A DNA stretch of 36,080 bases from Candidatus Nomurabacteria bacterium (lineage in GTDB: Bacteria; Patescibacteriota; Minisyncoccia; Phycocordibacterales; UBA9973): positions 1 through 36,080 of the forward strand of contig JAHFNO010000015.1 in the NCBI GenBank assembly GCA_023267275.1, in the 5' to 3' direction. Positions 25,487 through 34,274 of this stretch are shown in pieces. Under the pieces are notes generated by a model. The model was not told where the DNA came from. It saw only the letters and a program-made list of their open reading frames with translations, and made no database searches. Position 1 is the first letter of the stretch; each line of letters begins with the position of its first letter. Made by a program: the position numbers and the translations under genes.

Positions 25487-25505
25487 CAAAATATACTCAA
25501 CAAAA

Positions 25506-25536
25506 AAATACTTCTCTTTGAGAAGTATTTTTTTGT
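25506..25536 (+). terminator. terminator of rpsL-rpsG unit
   Basis: AAATACTTCTC / GAGAAGTATTT with loop TTT, followed by T-run. Confidence 0.9.
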
Positions 25537-25565
25537 TGACACCCAGACAAATATAATAATATAAT
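25536..25565 (+). promoter_or_regulatory. promoter of the gene at 25597
   Basis: TTGACA (25536-25541), 18-bp spacer, TATAAT (25560-25565). Confidence 0.75.
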
Positions 25566-25596
25566 CTATATTATTATTCTTAATTGAAGAAAAATC

Positions 25597-25953
25597 ATGA
25601 CTGAAGGAATGCCATCAATGGAGTCTAAGAATGATCCGATTAAAGTAATGCGTTATATGGAGCAAATGGGTAGCGATATTTCGAGGCATGCTCGAACTGT
25701 GATTGCTATGATTGAATTCGCTAAAAAGAATAATATTCCGATTGATTTGTCAGGGAATAAACTCCAAAAGTTTGCTTCGGGAGGAGAAAATGAAGTTAAA
25801 CTTATCAATTTGCGCGGTGACCTAGCAGAGTTTGAGTCAATTCTTTTCAGACAAGGTGTTAAAATGAAAATGGCGGATCTTGAAGCTCAACATTTGCCAA
25901 ATGAGAATGATAAAATTGCGCAAAATCTGAATTCAAAAGAGGGTCGTAACTAA
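25597..25953 (+). CDS. hypothetical protein, 118 aa
   Basis: Not recognised. Helical and charged (DPIKVMRYMEQMGSDISRHARTVIAMIEFAKKNN), no membrane segment. An ATG closer to the body (MESKND) is a possible alternative start. First gene of the accessory block between rpsG and fusA, with its own promoter and terminator. Confidence 0.65.
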   Translation: MTEGMPSMESKNDPIKVMRYMEQMGSDISRHARTVIAMIEFAKKNNIPIDLSGNKLQKFASGGENEVKLINLRGDLAEFESILFRQGVKMKMADLEAQHLPNENDKIAQNLNSKEGRN

Positions 25954-25988
25954 ATTAAAAAGCTCGGGTAACCCCGAGCTTTTTAATT
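25953..25988 (+). terminator. intrinsic terminator, 16-bp arms
   Basis: AATTAAAAAGCTCGGG with its exact complement and loop TAAC, starting in the last base of the stop codon. Confidence 0.9.
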
Positions 25989-26014
25989 TATAAATAACCT
26001 ACGTATTTTTTTAT

Positions 26015-26042
26015 TTGACATTCATTCGCTAGGTGCTACATT
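26015..26042 (+). promoter_or_regulatory. promoter of the gene at 26074
   Basis: TTGACA (26015-26020), 16-bp spacer, TACATT (26037-26042). Confidence 0.65.
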
Positions 26043-26073
26043 TGAGTTAAATTTCACCTAAAATTCATTTGGT

Positions 26074-26484
26074 ATGGATAAAAATATTTTGGCATTTGAT
26101 CCTCATCCTGAGCATGAACGGGGTTTACGGCAAATAACTGTTTTTAGCACCCGATTTCTTAAGGAAGAACTCTGGGAACACGATGGAGCTGAAGGAGTCC
26201 TTCATATTATTGAGGAATCCTTTTATGGCTTTTTGAAAAAAGTTGATGGTCTTACTGATGAGGAAGCGAAAAAAATTCTTCCTGATTTCGCTTTTGCAGA
26301 AACAAGGGATTTGGAAGCGGAGAAAAAAGTCGGGCGTATTTTTCAACAAGATCCATCACTAAGAAGAATCCTGGCAAGAAAATTTCTTGTCGCCAAGAAA
26401 CAGGGAACTCTTATTTCGGATGAGGAGATCATAAAAAGAAATCTCTTTCGGCGTGAAAAATTTAAGTATATTGGAACAGGATAA
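26074..26484 (+). CDS. hypothetical protein, 136 aa
   Basis: Not recognised. Mostly helical (KEELWEHDGAEGVLHIIEESFYGFLKKVDGLTDEEAKKILPDF) with a basic C-terminus (KRNLFRREKFKYIGTG). No known motif. A single-gene unit with promoter and terminator. Confidence 0.65.
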   Translation: MDKNILAFDPHPEHERGLRQITVFSTRFLKEELWEHDGAEGVLHIIEESFYGFLKKVDGLTDEEAKKILPDFAFAETRDLEAEKKVGRIFQQDPSLRRILARKFLVAKKQGTLISDEEIIKRNLFRREKFKYIGTG

Positions 26485-26502
26485 ATAATTTTTCAAAAAT
26501 CA

Positions 26503-26530
26503 AAGGAGTCCCATAAAGGCTCCTTTTTCT
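26503..26530 (+). terminator. intrinsic terminator
   Basis: AAAGGAG / CTCCTTT stem with a T-rich tail. Confidence 0.85.
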
Positions 26531-26571
26531 TTTTTTAAAATAATGTAGTATTTCATTTAAATCCCGCTCCT

Positions 26572-26745
26572 ATGGCAAAGCAACCCACATTCGCACCACC
26601 GAAGATGAATGCAATCAAACGGTACATTTGCAAAAAGAAAAAGAAAAGAATCCATGATGTTTTTGTAAAGTGTAGAGGTAGGTCAAGAATAGTTATTGAT
26701 CCATCAGCACTCCCTTTTATCAAAAAGAGAATAAACCCAACCTAA
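26572..26745 (+). CDS. small basic protein MAKQP-1, 57 aa
   Basis: A 57-codon frame starting MAKQPTFAPPKMNA and containing KKKKKRIHDVF. Related by its start (MAKQPxxxAPKMNA) to the 39-aa frame at 27245, and the bases before both starts are alike (GCTCCTATGGCAAA and GCTCCCATGGCAAA). Very rich in Lys/Arg, so it probably binds nucleic acid. The terminator overlaps its stop. Two cysteines (RYICKK and VKCRGR) are spaced 16 residues apart; the second is shared by the paralogue (VRCKGE). Function unknown. Confidence 0.6.
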   Translation: MAKQPTFAPPKMNAIKRYICKKKKKRIHDVFVKCRGRSRIVIDPSALPFIKKRINPT

Positions 26746-26765
26746 GAAGGAAGGGTTTTTATTTT
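26733..26765 (+). terminator. terminator overlapping end of MAKQP-1
   Basis: AAACCC ... GGGTTT with inner CC/GG pair and a T-rich tail. The homologous terminator after MAKQP-2 keeps the same pairs with changed loops. Confidence 0.75.
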
Positions 26766-26774
26766 GTTTACACT

Positions 26775-26892
26775 GGGTTTGCCCGGTAGTAGATCTTTTT
26801 GATATTGCTACGCAATGCACCAAAGGTGCTTCAAAAAGTCTCACTACCGGGTTTGACAAAGAATATGTGGATGGTAGTGTAAAGAAAAACTT
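26775..26892 (+). repeat. cloverleaf repeat copy 1 with promoter region
   Basis: 118 bp that match 27417-27534 with a single difference. The core 26782-26851 (70 bp) folds as outer stem CCCGGTAGT/ACTACCGGG, continued by AGAxCTTTTTGA/TCAAAAAGTCT, with two inner hairpins ATTGC-TAC-GCAAT and GCACC-AAA-GGTGC. The shared part then includes TTGACA and the start of a downstream promoter. See also copy 3 at 30591. Confidence 0.9.
26853..26880 (+). promoter_or_regulatory. promoter after cloverleaf copy 1
   Basis: TTGACA (26853-26858), 16-bp spacer, TAGTGT (26875-26880), followed by AAAGAAAAAC. The same TAGTGT-RAAGAAAAAC box lies before the gene at 28638, which suggests shared control. Confidence 0.6.
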
Positions 26893-26899
26893 TTACATT

Positions 26900-27214
26900 A
26901 TGTCAATACCGAAACTCGAAGCCGTAATACGTGAGCTTCATGAAAAAAATGATATCAAAAGTATCGAAAAAAAGAGACAAGCATGTATGAAGCTTTTGGA
27001 TAGTTATTGTCTTCTTAAACGAGCTACCGAAAAACATATTTCCGCATGCAAATACGCAGTCTCAGTACTCGTTCTAATTCCTGGAAAGAAAAATGCGGAT
27101 GAGATAGGTATGTGGCTTAAAATGAAAGGCCTCGCTGTTGTTTCTGGCATTGCACGGCAGTTGCCAGATAATACAAATGATTTACTGCATGCAAAGGCCG
27201 TGCTTGGACATTAA
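26900..27214 (+). CDS. small helical protein A (CCYA-like family), 104 aa
   Basis: From MSIPKLEAVIRELHEKN. Helical, with ISACKYAVSVLV at residues about 48-58 aligning to SACCYAALVVSG of protein B and VVCCYASVVLSH of protein C. The preceding helix carrying LLDSYCLL aligns to IMEGYTEL in B. A diverged member of a three-gene family in this block. Soluble, no signal peptide. Function unknown. Confidence 0.65.
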   Translation: MSIPKLEAVIRELHEKNDIKSIEKKRQACMKLLDSYCLLKRATEKHISACKYAVSVLVLIPGKKNADEIGMWLKMKGLAVVSGIARQLPDNTNDLLHAKAVLGH

Positions 27215-27244
27215 TTCATTTTTTCACAACTCAATTTTGCTCCC

Positions 27245-27364
27245 ATGGCAAAACAACCCAAATCTACAGCGCCCAAAATGAACGCCAAAAGAAAACGTGC
27301 AAAAAAGAAGTTAGAACCGCGAGTAAGATGTAAAGGAGAATCAAAATTGATAATCATCGTTTAA
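27245..27364 (+). CDS. small basic protein MAKQP-2, 39 aa
   Basis: A 39-codon frame, MAKQPKSTAPKMNAKRKRAK and on to VRCKGESKLIIIV. Paralogue of MAKQP-1. Lys/Arg-rich. Both paralogues lie immediately 5' of a cloverleaf copy. Too short for certainty, but two related frames in the same position support each other. Confidence 0.5.
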   Translation: MAKQPKSTAPKMNAKRKRAKKKLEPRVRCKGESKLIIIV

Positions 27365-27374
27365 AAGACAAATG

Positions 27375-27406
27375 AAACCCGACCTACCAAGGAAGGGTTT
27401 TTATTT
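27375..27406 (+). terminator. terminator after MAKQP-2
   Basis: AAACCC / GGGTTT with inner CC/GG pair and a T-rich tail; homologue of the one at 26733. Confidence 0.75.
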
Positions 27407-27416
27407 TGCATACATC

Positions 27417-27534
27417 GGGTTTGCCCGGTAGTAGATCTTTTTGATATTGCTACGCAATGCACCAAAGGTGCTTCAAAAAGTCTCACTACCGGGTTTGACA
27501 AAGAATATGTGGATGGTAGGGTAAAGAAAAACTT
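27417..27534 (+). repeat. cloverleaf repeat copy 2 with promoter region
   Basis: Same 118 bp as copy 1 with one base changed. Core 27424-27493. The promoter is TTGACA (27495-27500) and TAGGGT (27517-27522). Copies 1 and 2 are 642 bp apart while the coding frames between and around them are diverged. Confidence 0.9.
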
Positions 27535-27542
27535 ATCTGACA

Positions 27543-28556
27543 ATGAAAAATAGCAAAGAACAAATTATGAAGGAGCTTCAAGAGAATATCCTCCTCATGC
27601 CGATTGTAAAATTATGGTTTGCATTAACTCAGCTTGATTCTGAAAGGCTTAATCAAATCCTGAAAATTCTCACACCAAAAAGATTCCGAGCAGTTATTGC
27701 TTGTGATTTGCGAATGCAAAATTACAAGAAACGCCTCAATACTAGCGATCTTCACTCACTGTACTTTTCGAAACCAATCGATCGAAAATTACTCGACGCG
27801 CTGTCTGTTCCGCTCTTGGTTCATATCGGAAATAAGATGGGGTACAGTCATAATTGGGGGTATTGGCATGATTTAGACGCTAAAAAAATTCCAAGAAATC
27901 AATGCAAAGATCTCTGTGATTATTTCTATGGAGCACCGACTAAACGAATTGCCACAGTTTTAGAGTTTTTAATCGACAGTACTGTGGGAGTTACTGCACC
28001 AGCGTCAGAAAGGGAATATGACATCTTTAAATACAAAGAGGGAAAGCAATTTCCTTTTGAGATGATTTGGATGCTTTCTTGTGTTCATCCAAAGTTTCTT
28101 TTTCCTGCGCTAAATATCATTCCACTATCGAAAATCAAGCGAATGCTTTATCTTTGTAAAAAAGGGCATGACGGATATTTGGAGGCAGATTTTCTTCATG
28201 AATATAAAAAAAATAGCTCTGGCCGTCATTACGCAGATAAAATGGAACCGTTTGCAAAATACGCATATATACTCAAAGACGAGATATTATTTGCTATGCT
28301 GAAGCTTTTCCATGAAGATGTCCAGCTTGTTATTACAAAATCATTAGGAGAAGAGCGTGTTCGTTTAATGTATAAGAAAAAACTATTCAACGATACCATT
28401 TCTTTTCCTGAGAACTTTACTTTATTTGTCGACAAGAATTCAAATGAAGGAATTCTTGAAAAGATACAGGCCGGAAAAGTTGCAGTTAAATCAATCGATG
28501 CAAAGAAAACAGTAGAATTACTTGGTGAGTTGTTGCTAAATGAATCCGCCGCATAA
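27543..28556 (+). CDS. hypothetical protein, 337 aa
   Basis: Not recognised. Soluble and mostly helical, with several aromatic motifs (NWGYWHDLDAKKIPRNQCKDLCDYFYGAPTKR; VHPKFLFPALNIIPLSKIKRMLYLCKKGHDGYLEADFLHEYKK). No nucleotide-binding loop or known catalytic site. It follows cloverleaf copy 2 and is the largest unknown gene of the block. It ends in a terminator. Confidence 0.7.
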   Translation: MKNSKEQIMKELQENILLMPIVKLWFALTQLDSERLNQILKILTPKRFRAVIACDLRMQNYKKRLNTSDLHSLYFSKPIDRKLLDALSVPLLVHIGNKMGYSHNWGYWHDLDAKKIPRNQCKDLCDYFYGAPTKRIATVLEFLIDSTVGVTAPASEREYDIFKYKEGKQFPFEMIWMLSCVHPKFLFPALNIIPLSKIKRMLYLCKKGHDGYLEADFLHEYKKNSSGRHYADKMEPFAKYAYILKDEILFAMLKLFHEDVQLVITKSLGEERVRLMYKKKLFNDTISFPENFTLFVDKNSNEGILEKIQAGKVAVKSIDAKKTVELLGELLLNESAA

Positions 28557-28561
28557 TTTTA

Positions 28562-28590
28562 GAGCCCCGCTACTACAGCAGGGCTTTTTT
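28562..28590 (+). terminator. intrinsic terminator
   Basis: AGCCCcGCT / AGCaGGGCT stem with a T6 tail. Confidence 0.85.
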
Positions 28591-28591
28591 C

Positions 28592-28620
28592 TTGCAAAAA
28601 ATATTGATGTGATTTAGTGT
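28592..28620 (+). promoter_or_regulatory. promoter of gene B
   Basis: TTGCAA (28592-28597), 17-bp spacer, TAGTGT (28615-28620), then GAAGAAAAAC. Matches the box before gene A. Confidence 0.65.
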
Positions 28621-28637
28621 GAAGAAAAACACTCATT

Positions 28638-28955
28638 ATGTCAGGGAAAAAACCAACGATACTGGAACTGAATGAAAAATTGCGCCTTCTTCACGGACAA
28701 CAGCTTGCCGAAAAAATGGACGAGGAGATAGATCTGGCTTTCAAAATTATGGAAGGCTATACGGAACTTTTGGAAAAGAAAATTAAGGATTCACACAGGA
28801 GTGCCTGTTGTTATGCCGCACTTGTAGTTTCCGGTTTTATCAAGGAAGGATTGGCGGATAGGACGAAAGAGTTTCTTAGAGAATATGAAGATTTTATTCA
28901 TCCTCGAGCAGCTGAAATCCTTAGAGCCAGTATGTTAAGAATGTCTGGATTCTAA
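28638..28955 (+). CDS. small helical protein B (CCYA family), 105 aa
   Basis: MSGKKPTILELNEKLRLLHG start. Pattern IDLAFKIMEGYTELLEKKI, then SACCYAALVVSG (Cys57, Cys58), and FLREYEDFIHPRAAEIL. Clearly homologous to protein C (same order of IDLAFxIxExY, CCYAxxV, FLxxYxxxIxPRA). All-helical and soluble. Unknown function. Confidence 0.75.
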   Translation: MSGKKPTILELNEKLRLLHGQQLAEKMDEEIDLAFKIMEGYTELLEKKIKDSHRSACCYAALVVSGFIKEGLADRTKEFLREYEDFIHPRAAEILRASMLRMSGF

Positions 28956-29110
28956 ATTTCACGCCAGCGCCTTTAGCTGAAGTGTCTGATTCTGGGATAA
29001 AAGAGGAAGACATATTTGGCGTCCGAAAAAGGGGCAGTAAATTGCTTGTTTATGCTGTAGAAGCCGATGTAATCAAAAAAGCCCTATTTTATAAGGGCTT
29101 TTTCTATTGA
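28925..29110 (+). pseudogene. possible gene remnant after B
   Basis: Open frame without a normal start codon, overlapping the end of B in another frame. It reads coding-like sequence (PLAEVSDSGIKEEDIFGVRK, then SKLLVYAVEADVIKKAL) up to the terminator, into which it runs. It may be the 3' end of a lost gene or chance. Confidence 0.25.
29077..29103 (+). terminator. intrinsic terminator
   Basis: AAGCCCT / AGGGCTT stem, T-rich tail. Confidence 0.85.
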
Positions 29111-29135
29111 CTTTATACTTTGATTATGCTATAAT
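29107..29135 (+). promoter_or_regulatory. promoter of helicase gene
   Basis: TTGACT (29107-29112), 17-bp spacer, TATAAT (29130-29135). Confidence 0.75.
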
Positions 29136-29175
29136 ATCGGCATAAAAATGGTAACTTAAAAACTTCATATATAAA

Positions 29176-30393
29176 ATGGAACACACACCTTCTACAGAGC
29201 AAGCTCTGGCAATGATGAAAATTCGCCAGGGATATTCCTTGGTAATCAACGGTGAAGCTGGTACTGGAAAAAGCGCCTTGATAAAACAAATAGCTAAAAC
29301 CAAGAACCGAAAAGTAATCGTGACTGCCGTTACAGGAATGGCCGCACGCAAAATTGGAGGAACGACGATCAGTAGCTTTCTCAAGCTTGGTCTGTATCGC
29401 CATTCGGATGAGCTCATCCAATGGAACAACCGAGAATACCTCGATGTTGAAATACTCATTATTGATGAATATTTCACACTGAGTATTGATCAACTTCGTC
29501 AGGTGGATCTTGCATTGCGGACTGCAAAAAAACGCAAGCATGAACCATTCGGTGGGGTTCAAATAATTCTCGTTGGAGACAACGGGCAACTAGAGCCATA
29601 CGAAGGATTGCCGATTACTCCGGAAGCGGAAATTGTATCTGGTTTTACCTGGATGCAATTTACAACCGTATTTCGGCAGGAAGATATTGCTGATGTTGCA
29701 ATGTTGCGCAAGATCAGGAATTACGGAATATCACAGAGTGTAATTGCAGATTTGCGAACAAAAACTTCGTCATGCGAAATGGAAGGGGTTGTGCTTGCAG
29801 CTCATTGGAACGAAGCCGAACAAATAAATGCAGAGTTCCTTGCCGATTTTGCAGGTGAAGAATTTTTGGAGCATACAGCTTCATCTTCTGGCAAATATAC
29901 TGCTGATTTGCCATACGAAACAATCAGATTGTATGTAGGCATGCAGGTCATGCACACGCATAATCTGACGTATGGATCGTATGAAGATCCGGATTACATT
30001 GTAAATGGAGATGTCGGAATTGTTGAAGAAATTTGTTATGACGGAGGGTCGGTACGTGTACAATTTGATCATTGTAGCGTGTGGATATCCGAAAGATATT
30101 TTTCTGAAAACGAAACTTCTTTTGTCAAAGAAGAGAATTATGCTACTGGCTACGAAAAAAGACTTCCAGTTATAGAAGAAGTCGGCCATGCATCTTTCTT
30201 TCCTTTACGGCCATGTTATGCACTCACGGTGCGTAAGGCGCAAGGCATTGGTTTTGAGCGAGGAAACATTACTGAAGGAGTGTTGCGAAGCAATAACAGA
30301 AGATTGTTGTACACTGCACTTTCGCGGTTTGAAAAGTTTTCTGATCTGCATATCCTTTACATAGGTCCCAAACGGTTAATGTTTGCCGCTTGA
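29176..30393 (+). CDS. Pif1/RecD-like superfamily 1B helicase, small
   Basis: 405 aa. Walker A is GEAGTGKS (residues 26-33), Walker B IIDEYF (95-100), motif III VGDNGQLEP (133-141), motif IV-like TTVFRQ, motif V YALTVRKAQGIGFERGNI (SQG box as AQG), and motif VI LLYTALSRFEKF. The core resembles Pif1 and RecD2 5'-3' DNA helicases without extra domains. It lies inside the accessory block, flanked by repeats and an sRNA candidate, so it may act on that element or on DNA repair generally. Confidence 0.88.
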   Translation: MEHTPSTEQALAMMKIRQGYSLVINGEAGTGKSALIKQIAKTKNRKVIVTAVTGMAARKIGGTTISSFLKLGLYRHSDELIQWNNREYLDVEILIIDEYFTLSIDQLRQVDLALRTAKKRKHEPFGGVQIILVGDNGQLEPYEGLPITPEAEIVSGFTWMQFTTVFRQEDIADVAMLRKIRNYGISQSVIADLRTKTSSCEMEGVVLAAHWNEAEQINAEFLADFAGEEFLEHTASSSGKYTADLPYETIRLYVGMQVMHTHNLTYGSYEDPDYIVNGDVGIVEEICYDGGSVRVQFDHCSVWISERYFSENETSFVKEENYATGYEKRLPVIEEVGHASFFPLRPCYALTVRKAQGIGFERGNITEGVLRSNNRRLLYTALSRFEKFSDLHILYIGPKRLMFAA

Positions 30394-30418
30394 CAGATTC
30401 TATGATTTGGTATATGCT
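30390..30418 (+). promoter_or_regulatory. promoter of candidate small RNA
   Basis: TTGACA (30390-30395) overlapping the helicase stop, 17-bp spacer, TATGCT (30413-30418). Confidence 0.65.
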
Positions 30419-30423
30419 ACGAA

Positions 30424-30585
30424 GTAATTAGTTCATTGCATTCTTTTGTTGCCGGATCCCTATTTTTGTAAGGGAAATGCAACTTCAGTGCTAATGAGAA
30501 TATGTGTGAGTTGCGGTAAAGATCCCAATTTTGTAGGGTGATCACCGCTATTATCTTAAGAAGCCCCTAAAAAAGGCTTCTTTTT
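30424..30585 (+). ncRNA. candidate small RNA, about 160 nt
   Basis: Promoter at 30390-30418 and terminator GAAGCC/GGCTTC with T5 at 30560-30585 enclose a gene-free stretch. Two nested hairpins share a pattern: the first has TTGCATT/AATGCAA around TCCCT/AGGGA (30436-30482); the second has GCGGT/ACCGC around GATC...GATC and CCC/GGG (30513-30548). Both carry a GATCCC-(T/A)ATTTT-GTA-GGG core, as if duplicated. No known RNA family was recognised. Confidence 0.5.
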
Positions 30586-30590
30586 ATTTA

Positions 30591-30660
30591 CCCGGTAGTA
30601 GATCTTTTTGATATTGCTACGCAATATACTAAAGGTGTTTCAAAAAGGCTCACTACCAGG
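30591..30660 (+). repeat. cloverleaf repeat copy 3
   Basis: Same 70-bp length as copies 1 and 2, with several changes. In the second inner hairpin the GCACC/GGTGC stem has become ATACT/GGTGT, which still pairs through A-U and G-U pairs; one mismatch appears in each outer-stem part. It lies after the small RNA terminator and before protein C. Confidence 0.85.
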
Positions 30661-30709
30661 TTTGCCAAACAAAAATGACAGGTATAGACTTTTGGCAAAA
30701 CCTGATTCT

Positions 30710-31036
30710 ATGGGAAAGACACTCTGTGCGCTGGGGCAGAAGCTTCATAGGCTCGACCGGCAAGACGAAAAGAAATATATGCAAGTCAAAATTGACCTCG
30801 CATTCCAGATTTTGGAAGCATATGCAGCGCTTCCAAAGGAAAAGAAAAAAGAGCGACAAAACGTAGTATGTTGTTATGCTTCAGTTGTTTTGTCACACAT
30901 TGTTGATTTACAGCTTGCAAAGAGAATATTCGATTTTCTGGAAAAATATCAATATGATATTTTTCCACGGGCGAAGCAGATGCTCGCTATGCGATTACCA
31001 ATTACCGCTGGATTTGTAAAAGAAATTACAGAATAA
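30710..31036 (+). CDS. small helical protein C (CCYA family), 108 aa
   Basis: From MGKTLCALGQKLHRLDRQD. The frame is open further upstream through the cloverleaf, but the homology to B starts here. VKIDLAFQILEAYAAL, VVCCYASVVLSH (Cys54, Cys55) and FLEKYQYDIFPRAKQML match B. A likely promoter, TTGCCA-17-TAGACT, starts at the end of cloverleaf copy 3. A hairpin AGGTTTGCCAAA/TTTGGCAAAACCT ends just before the ATG and could limit translation. Confidence 0.72.
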   Translation: MGKTLCALGQKLHRLDRQDEKKYMQVKIDLAFQILEAYAALPKEKKKERQNVVCCYASVVLSHIVDLQLAKRIFDFLEKYQYDIFPRAKQMLAMRLPITAGFVKEITE

Positions 31037-31056
31037 GCCCCACCTTGGGGGCTTTT
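31036..31056 (+). terminator. intrinsic terminator
   Basis: AGCCCC / GGGGGCT with a T-rich tail, at the stop of gene C. Confidence 0.85.
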
Positions 31057-31084
31057 ATTTTTTTAAACACGATTATTTGTTGGG

Positions 31085-31147
31085 TTGCAAAAATGCCCAA
31101 CTTTAGGTATAGTTTCGGACACAAGTGGACTCGGTGTCCTCTTTTTT
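31085..31147 (+). promoter_or_regulatory. fusA promoter followed at once by hairpin and T-run
   Basis: Promoter TTGCAA (31085-31090), 17-bp spacer, TATAGT (31108-31113). Hairpin GGACAC/GTGTCC (31117-31139) then TCTTTTTTATT. The RNA would start with a terminator-like hairpin before the roughly 60-nt rest of the leader, which suggests attenuation of fusA. Confidence 0.6.
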
Positions 31148-31171
31148 ATTAATCTATTTGCATTTTCGCTA

Positions 31172-31199
31172 GAGCCTAAAGCCTAGCGCCTAAAGCCTA
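31172..31199 (+). repeat. GCCTAAA heptad array in fusA leader
   Basis: GAGCCTA, AAGCCTA, GCGCCTA, AAGCCTA, then ATTTAT and the ATG at 31206. Confidence 0.85.
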
Positions 31200-31205
31200 A
31201 TTTAT

Positions 31206-33690: not shown

Positions 33691-33936
33691 ATGACAACCA
33701 AAGTACAAAAGTGGGGCAATAGCTTGGCGGTGCGTTTGCCAAAAGAGCTTGCTAAAAGTTTGGATTTGAAATCCGGAACAGTTGTTCGTTTTGTAAAAAA
33801 AGGAGCCAATGTAGAAATGCAACCAATATCAACAGTAAAGCAGTACTCCCTTGAAGAATTACTAAAAGGTATGACCAAGAAAAATTTACATTCTGAAACT
33901 GATTGGGGTAAACCTGTAGGAAAAGAGGTATGGTAA
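33691..33936 (+). CDS. mazE: MazE-like antitoxin (AbrB/SpoVT fold)
   Basis: 81 aa. N-terminal swapped-hairpin DNA-binding domain (TTKVQKWGNSLAVRLPKELAKSLDLKSGTVVRFVKKGANVEMQP), C-terminal toxin-binding tail (YSLEELLKGMTKKNLHSETDWGKPVGKEVW). Its stop overlaps the mazF start by seven bases, as in many TA operons. Leaderless transcript likely. Confidence 0.9.
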   Translation: MTTKVQKWGNSLAVRLPKELAKSLDLKSGTVVRFVKKGANVEMQPISTVKQYSLEELLKGMTKKNLHSETDWGKPVGKEVW

Positions 33937-34274
33937 AAGAAAAATATATTCCGGAACGTGGCGATATTATATGGTTAACTTTTTCGCCTACACAGGGTCA
34001 CGAACAGTCAGGACGAAGACCAGCGTTGGTTTTGTCTCCGATTTCGTATAATAAACTCACAGGGCTTGCTGTTGTTGTTCCAGTTACAAAAGTGAAGAAA
34101 GGATTTAACTTTGAAATTCCGATTGTAACAAGTAAAAATATCGGAGTAATTTTGTCCGATCACGTTCATTCTCTTGCCTATGAAAAACGTGGGGCAGAAT
34201 ACATCGAAAGGGCTAGTCAATTTGTTGTAGAGGAAGTCTGTAATAACATTAAGTCACTTATACAAGTAGTTTGA
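33930..34274 (+). CDS. mazF: MazF-like mRNA interferase toxin
   Basis: 114 aa. PemK/MazF motifs: ERGDIIWLTFSPTQGHEQSGRRPALVLSP (residues 9-37, with the conserved GxxxxxxRPALV), VVPVTKVKKGF and ILSDHVHSLAYEKRGAEYIERAS. It cleaves RNA at short sequence motifs in related systems. Paired with mazE. The TA pair sits between fusA and tuf, in what is normally a contiguous cluster. Confidence 0.92.
   Translation: MVKEKYIPERGDIIWLTFSPTQGHEQSGRRPALVLSPISYNKLTGLAVVVPVTKVKKGFNFEIPIVTSKNIGVILSDHVHSLAYEKRGAEYIERASQFVVEEVCNNIKSLIQVV

Follow-up and report, generated by a model that had tools for sequence, protein, structure and literature searches.

The stretch analyzed, called the window below, covers positions 1 to 36,080 (36,080 nucleotides) of contig JAHFNO010000015.1 from a Candidatus Nomurabacteria bacterium (GCA_023267275.1), whose 1.02-Mb genome in 33 contigs is designated G000. 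Between rpsG and fusA, the window holds three copies of a structured 70-bp repeat. These repeats are probably non-autonomous members, similar to miniature inverted-repeat transposable elements (MITEs), of a superfamily of palindromic mobile elements linked to GIY-YIG nuclease genes. The copies and their flanks are located as follows.

26782..26851, + strand: element copy 1, 70 bp, CCCGGTAGTAGATC...GTCTCACTACCGGG
26778..26781, no strand: left 4-bp direct repeat TTTG of copy 1 (target duplication), from flank comparison
26852..26855, no strand: right 4-bp direct repeat TTTG of copy 1, from flank comparison
27424..27493, + strand: element copy 2, identical to copy 1 and carried by the local duplication
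27420..27423, no strand: left TTTG of copy 2, copied along with the duplication
27494..27497, no strand: right TTTG of copy 2, from flank comparison
30591..30660, + strand: element copy 3, 70 bp, 90-91% identical, second hairpin partly decayed
30587..30590, no strand: left flank TTTA of copy 3; the right flank is TTTG at 30661-30664 (match 3/4)
26722..26892, + strand: duplicated segment, first copy, holding element copy 1 (92% identity to the second)
27364..27534, + strand: duplicated segment, second copy, holding element copy 2 (92% identity to the first)

The starts at 26782, 27424 and 30591 and the common length given in an earlier note on this DNA were confirmed, and a terminator-like hairpin, also claimed there, was seen by eye ahead of all three copies. 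Copy 1 folds into the long stem with two inner hairpins that the note had described (-34.2 kcal/mol; z = -8.5, equaled by 0 of 200 shuffles), and the fold of copy 3 is weaker (-23.3 kcal/mol, z = -4.1). The inner stem of copy 3 had been said to change in sequence and still pair, which holds only in part: in that copy the second hairpin can pair only through G-T wobbles and is absent from the minimum-energy fold. Compensatory change was found when genomes were compared (see below). The near-identity of copies 1 and 2 over 118 bp is real and sits within a stretch of at least 171 bp with 92% identity, flanks included. As the flanks are shared, copies 1 and 2 are, by this comparison, the product of a local duplication and not of two separate insertions. 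The duplication accounts for their near-identity, which is therefore not evidence of a special recombination site.

Whole-genome searches of G000 recovered seven copies of 68-71 bp, spread over five of its contigs. Those outside the window lie at the ends of dprA (L004), a membrane-protein gene (L005) and tgt (L007) and beside an rseP-like gene (L006). The same genome has five versions of 124-130 bp, with the same ends and a longer loop in place of the two hairpins, and one of ~320 bp. Among 60 relatives, only one genome, of the same family, had a copy (G018, L008), and the short element was not found in five congeners of G000. GTDB r220 was scanned with the exact pattern CGGTAGTAGA-N30-60-CTCACTACCG, which gave 22 stretches, nearly all from metagenome-assembled genomes (MAGs) of Candidatus Nomurabacteria, Vogelbacteria and Saccharibacteria. 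Judged on fold and flanks, about 20 of the 22 are credible Patescibacteria copies; L027 and L036 resemble chance matches, and L037 is without a good target duplication. No copy was found in the viral contigs searched, and Rfam scans of the element matched no family. Across genomes, the short copies measure 65-81 bp, have no protein-coding capacity and carry inverted ends (CCCGGTAGT/ACTACCGGG), as MITEs do. Smaller copies of ~38 bp with the same ends and a simple loop were also seen (L085, L089, L091 and L096), the one at L091 with a TTGA target duplication. At L092 (G061), half an element has apparently turned into the first codons of rplU, the gene for ribosomal protein L21 (reading MSFGDVQSTTGGKQY).

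The shape of the element is more constant than its sequence. The outer 9-bp stem CCCGGTAGT/ACTACCGGG is common to all genuine copies with few exceptions. The AGA/CTC mismatch that comes next is near-invariant, and beyond it are an inner stem of ~8 bp and, in most copies, two hairpins. Pairs were counted from a MAFFT alignment and by direct comparison of the arms. In 42 elements with 29 distinct left arms, the inner arms were 98% paired, compared with 65% when the arms were re-dealt (maximum 77% in 5,000 trials). An alignment of 23 sequences (A2) contained 44 cells changed on both sides, where 13.2 were expected (reached in 0 of 500 shuffles), and its pairing of 97% fell to 30-50% when the partners were slid by 1-3 columns. 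Of 31 short copies, 24 had the two-hairpin top in their minimum-energy fold, and element interiors folded better than their shuffled counterparts (mean z = -2.5). The inner stem is kept paired by compensatory change: the ends and the shape are selected, and the sequence is not.

Insertion has left footprints. The flanking 4-bp direct repeats vary by copy (TCAA, TTGA, CAAG, CTTG, TTTT, AACA, TTTG and others). With the register fixed, a perfect repeat flanked 21 of 42 elements (1.2 expected; maximum 7.2 in 20,000 mispairings), and 29 of the 42 had one when a one-base shift was allowed (2.4 expected). The target-site duplication has a fixed length of 4 bp, as in a MITE, and the short form has reached unrelated loci on five G000 contigs and in many genomes. 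Dispersal, inverted termini and target duplications together bear out the suggestion of a bacterial MITE, one of the options in the earlier note, and the movement of the 70-bp elements is well supported by these sequence comparisons.

The other main option in that note, a gene-cassette boundary or integron-like attC recombination site, was rejected as largely refuted, and its probability is now very slight. It has in its favor a hairpin folded from a single strand, in which unpaired bases are conserved, and the position of the three copies beside small genes, in an interval of 5.7 kb here whose counterpart in most congeners is short. Nevertheless, the attC core GTTRRRY is missing from all copies, as the note had itself observed, and solitary copies with target duplications stand at many loci, with genes in random orientation around them. 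In addition, copies 1 and 2 were locally duplicated in tandem. The window contains no integrase, again as observed before; the three tyrosine recombinases of G000 are on contigs C10, C30 and C31, and a check for linked recombinases found no tyrosine recombinase near any window copy.

The footprints also bear on a repetitive extragenic palindromic (REP) element moved by a Y1 (HUH) transposase of the REP-associated tyrosine transposase (RAYT) type, an explanation with hardly any probability left. The Y1_Tnp proteins of G000 are two short TnpA and three RAYT-like proteins, and the element has a GTAG in the stem and conserved bulges, as REP hairpins do. However, Y1 enzymes make no target duplication, which is clear here, and the elements are 65-81 bp long with a three-way junction. 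Furthermore, no known copy is on the same contig as the Y1 genes of C21 and C28, and on C2 a distance of 7 kb separates the two. REP/RAYT was rejected because target duplications are present and the Y1 genes are not beside copies.

Flanking genes were oriented at random with respect to the element (++ 11, -- 10, divergent 7, convergent 3). A cis-acting RNA (a terminator, a leader or an RNase III-type intervening sequence) that spread with its genes is therefore improbable and was rejected on this ground. The strong RNA fold and the compensatory pairing would suit it, as would the many short unexplained insertions in ribosomal RNA (rRNA) genes of the candidate phyla radiation (CPR), where the GIY-YIG genes all lie in non-intron insertions (PMC11270868). 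Against it stand, besides the random orientation, the copy-specific direct repeats that mark insertions and the lack of an Rfam match. Removal of the hairpin from transcripts after insertion may nonetheless occur and is compatible with this evidence.

Target sites were recurrent. A -35-like TTGACA box (at most one mismatch) adjoins 8 of 32 short copies, where 0.8 was expected, and TGTGGATAA directly precedes or adjoins five short copies in Nomurabacteria MAGs (L025, L028, L030, L034 and L042). TGTGGATAA is the DnaA-box sequence TTATCCACA in reverse, and its presence may point to a preferred target. Five copies of 124-130 bp (L076-L080; contigs C1, C2, C8, C14 and C20 of G000) lie exactly in start codons, those of greA, smpB, mreB, murB and one more gene, each just past a -10-like box and with ATGNN duplicated on both sides. 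Since insertions at such sites leave the gene usable, selection and targeting are so far indistinguishable.

A gene-bearing version connects the element with the GIY-YIG nucleases. The single-end pattern CCGGTAGTRRG, which reads the right end only and was applied to 16 genomes, uncovered long and GIY-YIG-bearing versions. On contig C29 of G000, the ends CCCGGTAGTAGATCTTTAATT...AATTAAAGTCTCACTACCGGG surround an open reading frame (ORF) of 85 amino acids that matches Pfam GIY-YIG (PF01541, E = 6e-16); this insert is the ~320-bp version noted above (gene-bearing versions measure ~310-320 bp), and it interrupts rny, the gene for RNase Y, at its stop codon. A PDB sequence search with the GIY-YIG protein gave no match at E ≤ 0.01. 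The site is empty in five of five congeners, where uninserted rny ends Glu-Tyr-Ala-Arg-stop (e.g. ...GAATACGCGAGATAG), and it is filled in G000, G014/G064 (L087, L110) and G158 (L111), with remnants of the insert kept in G007 and G020. In the filled genomes, the element follows TACG, which is repeated at the far side (TATG in G000). Its first bases CCCGGTAG rebuild the end of rny (TAC G/CC CGG TAG = Tyr-Ala-Arg-stop; the slash marks the edge of the element). Because the left end restores the lost C-terminus, the insertion appears harmless, and this restoration is a plausible origin for the CCCGGTAG end. As in homing elements, the nuclease gene at C29 and in the relatives lies within the insert, and the conserved site is filled or empty among relatives; the 70-bp copies themselves carry no gene and in this respect differ from homing elements. 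Two other GIY-YIG genes of G000, L103 (C23) and L104 (C10), are enclosed by perfect inverted repeats (22 and 27 nt) that are unrelated in sequence. Downstream of the C29 element lies a solo palindrome similar to the C10 arm (GTCATCCTGAACTTGTTTCAGGATCTA).

Of 147 genomes in the family, 116 contained a GIY-YIG relative. The inverted-repeat score exceeded 99% of partner-swapped values at 20 of 73 GIY-YIG loci (~0.7 expected), and this null is conservative because relatives share arms. The arm class tracks the GIY-YIG protein tree, with 13 changes compared with 30.3 when shuffled; CCCGGTAGTAGA and CCCGTAGTAGA are neighbors on the tree, and CCCGTTAGAGAT forms one clade of 11. Perfect 4-bp repeats flank 18 of 31 gene-bearing elements (1.7 expected; flanks transcribed by hand). 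Several GIY-YIG elements sit in start codons, with frames read by eye, for example ATGGA/TCCCG...CGGGA/TGGA ahead of a recR-like frame and ATGAA/TCCCG...CGGGA/TGAA ahead of an rpiB-like frame. A search of 397 genomes of the order for a gene-less pattern of a different arm class, TCCCGTTAGA-N18-48-TCTAACGGGA, found it in 28 of them, with up to nine copies per genome; 4-bp repeats were present in 8 of the 17 copies examined (1.8 expected), and several have a two-hairpin top. Arms that enclose either two hairpins or a GIY-YIG gene are thus found in at least two arm classes.

From the shared ends, GIY-YIG is inferred to be the mover of the elements. The protein would recognize the stem, probably as a cruciform or a single-stranded hairpin, and would cut the two target strands about 4 nt apart. 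Joining of the element to the staggered ends and filling of the gaps would then give the 4-bp repeat. Gene-less Y-shaped copies would be moved in trans by the same protein, and such movement would explain why selection acts on the ends and the shape and not on the sequence.

Several observations weigh against this reading. The mobility of the elements rests on comparison of sequences, and no movement has been observed. Known GIY-YIG homing enzymes leave 2-nt 3' overhangs, so that a 4-bp duplication has no obvious source. Although five congeners are without the short element, no orthologous empty site has been shown for the 70-bp copies. About half of the 73 GIY-YIG loci have no clear inverted repeat, and the agreement between arms and protein tree would also be expected if the gene merely rides in the element. 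A same-ended GIY-YIG gene is missing from several genomes that abound in short copies, among them G062 (whose best GIY-YIG is 44% identical) and G074 (with no related GIY-YIG at E ≤ 0.001). Gene-bearing copies share ends with the short ones, but GIY-YIG, absent from some genomes, is not a proven transposase. Incomplete assemblies may hide such genes, but another transposase is possible, and the enzyme is the weakest link.

That other transposase, for example a DDE enzyme, might move an ordinary MITE, with GIY-YIG genes as passengers in palindrome loops, like homing genes in introns. This explanation is rather unlikely. In its favor, inverted ends with 4-bp target duplications are typical of DDE elements, some genomes have short copies without a same-ended GIY-YIG gene, and the gene can point either way between the ends (L112). 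However, the single-end search, with its one end sequence in 16 genomes, found no same-ended element with a known transposase. Moreover, several GIY-YIG clades each lie within their own arms with target duplications, and two hairpins kept by compensatory change are not expected of ordinary MITEs.

The GIY-YIG-linked element resembles several known systems in part. Like bacterial MITEs such as Correia/NEMIS, ERIC, RUP and MITEAba12, it is short, non-coding and intergenic, has inverted ends and a target duplication, and has a gene-bearing relative with the same ends; it differs in keeping a three-way-junction shape by compensatory change and in that the relative codes for a GIY-YIG nuclease and not a DDE transposase. 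With homing endonuclease genes (I-TevI and SegA; in group I introns, in inteins or free-standing), it shares a GIY-YIG gene at a conserved site, the rny stop, with the product restored. Unlike them, it has no intron or intein, makes a 4-bp duplication, occupies many non-allelic sites and has gene-less mobile relatives. REP/RAYT systems (REPINs) likewise scatter hairpin DNA between genes and link a nuclease-like gene family to hairpins, whereas the present element has a target duplication, a Y shape of 65-81 bp and GIY-YIG in place of an HUH enzyme. Palindromic elements of Rickettsia also sit at gene edges in a reduced genome; to our knowledge, they have no nuclease-bearing version. In Penelope-like retroelements, a GIY-YIG nuclease opens the target, but these are eukaryotic and have a reverse transcriptase; none of that kind was found here.

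The CPR rRNA insertions with GIY-YIG genes come from the same phylum. None of the insertions that carry those genes is a group I or group II intron, and the other unclassified insertions are mostly short, under 200 bp (PMC11270868). GIY-YIG seems to stand outside spread by homing there, and its manner of spread was left unexplained. Many short gene-less insertions accompany the gene-bearing ones, as here, but palindromic ends and gene-less Y-shaped relatives are not described ('palindrom' and 'hairpin' are absent from the text), and the present elements are at intergenic and gene-edge sites. In the open part of PubMed Central, no description was found of GIY-YIG genes within palindromic mobile elements.

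Besides the elements, the interval between rpsG and fusA contains the following features.

26572..26745, + strand: small basic ORF of 57 amino acids upstream of copy 1, without a Pfam match
27245..27364, + strand: small basic ORF of 39 amino acids upstream of copy 2, whose start resembles the 57-amino-acid ORF
29176-30393: PIF1-like helicase

Three related small proteins (~105 amino acids) are also encoded there; those at 28638 and 30710 are 37% identical, and the one at 26900 is a weak match. The interval spans 5.7 kb (25487-31205) in the window and ~140-530 bp in four of five congeners, and it is a lineage-specific islet that the elements may have helped to grow by duplication. The comparison of syntenic loci proposed with the cassette idea thus revealed an unusual interval, but gene swapping between copies was not demonstrable from it in the five congeners. 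Downstream of fusA, a MazE/MazF-like pair is located at 33691-34274 (judged from sequence only).

Taken further, the elements might represent an undescribed class of bacterial transposable element, a possibility that is put forward tentatively. In this class, a single-domain GIY-YIG nuclease would serve as the transposition enzyme on Y-shaped palindromic DNA, and each nuclease clade would have its own arms and gene-less Y-shaped satellites, which would insert at promoter boxes and start or stop codons and leave the genes undamaged. The clean footprints (4-bp repeats and start-codon inserts) would allow insertion to be measured in bacteria that resist culture, and the very small enzyme of 85 amino acids would, if the reading is true, be a candidate tool for DNA insertion. 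Small GIY-YIG genes are frequent in the CPR genomes searched; if they drive palindromic elements, their spread would be explained, and many of the dispersed hairpin repeats of reduced genomes would gain an origin.

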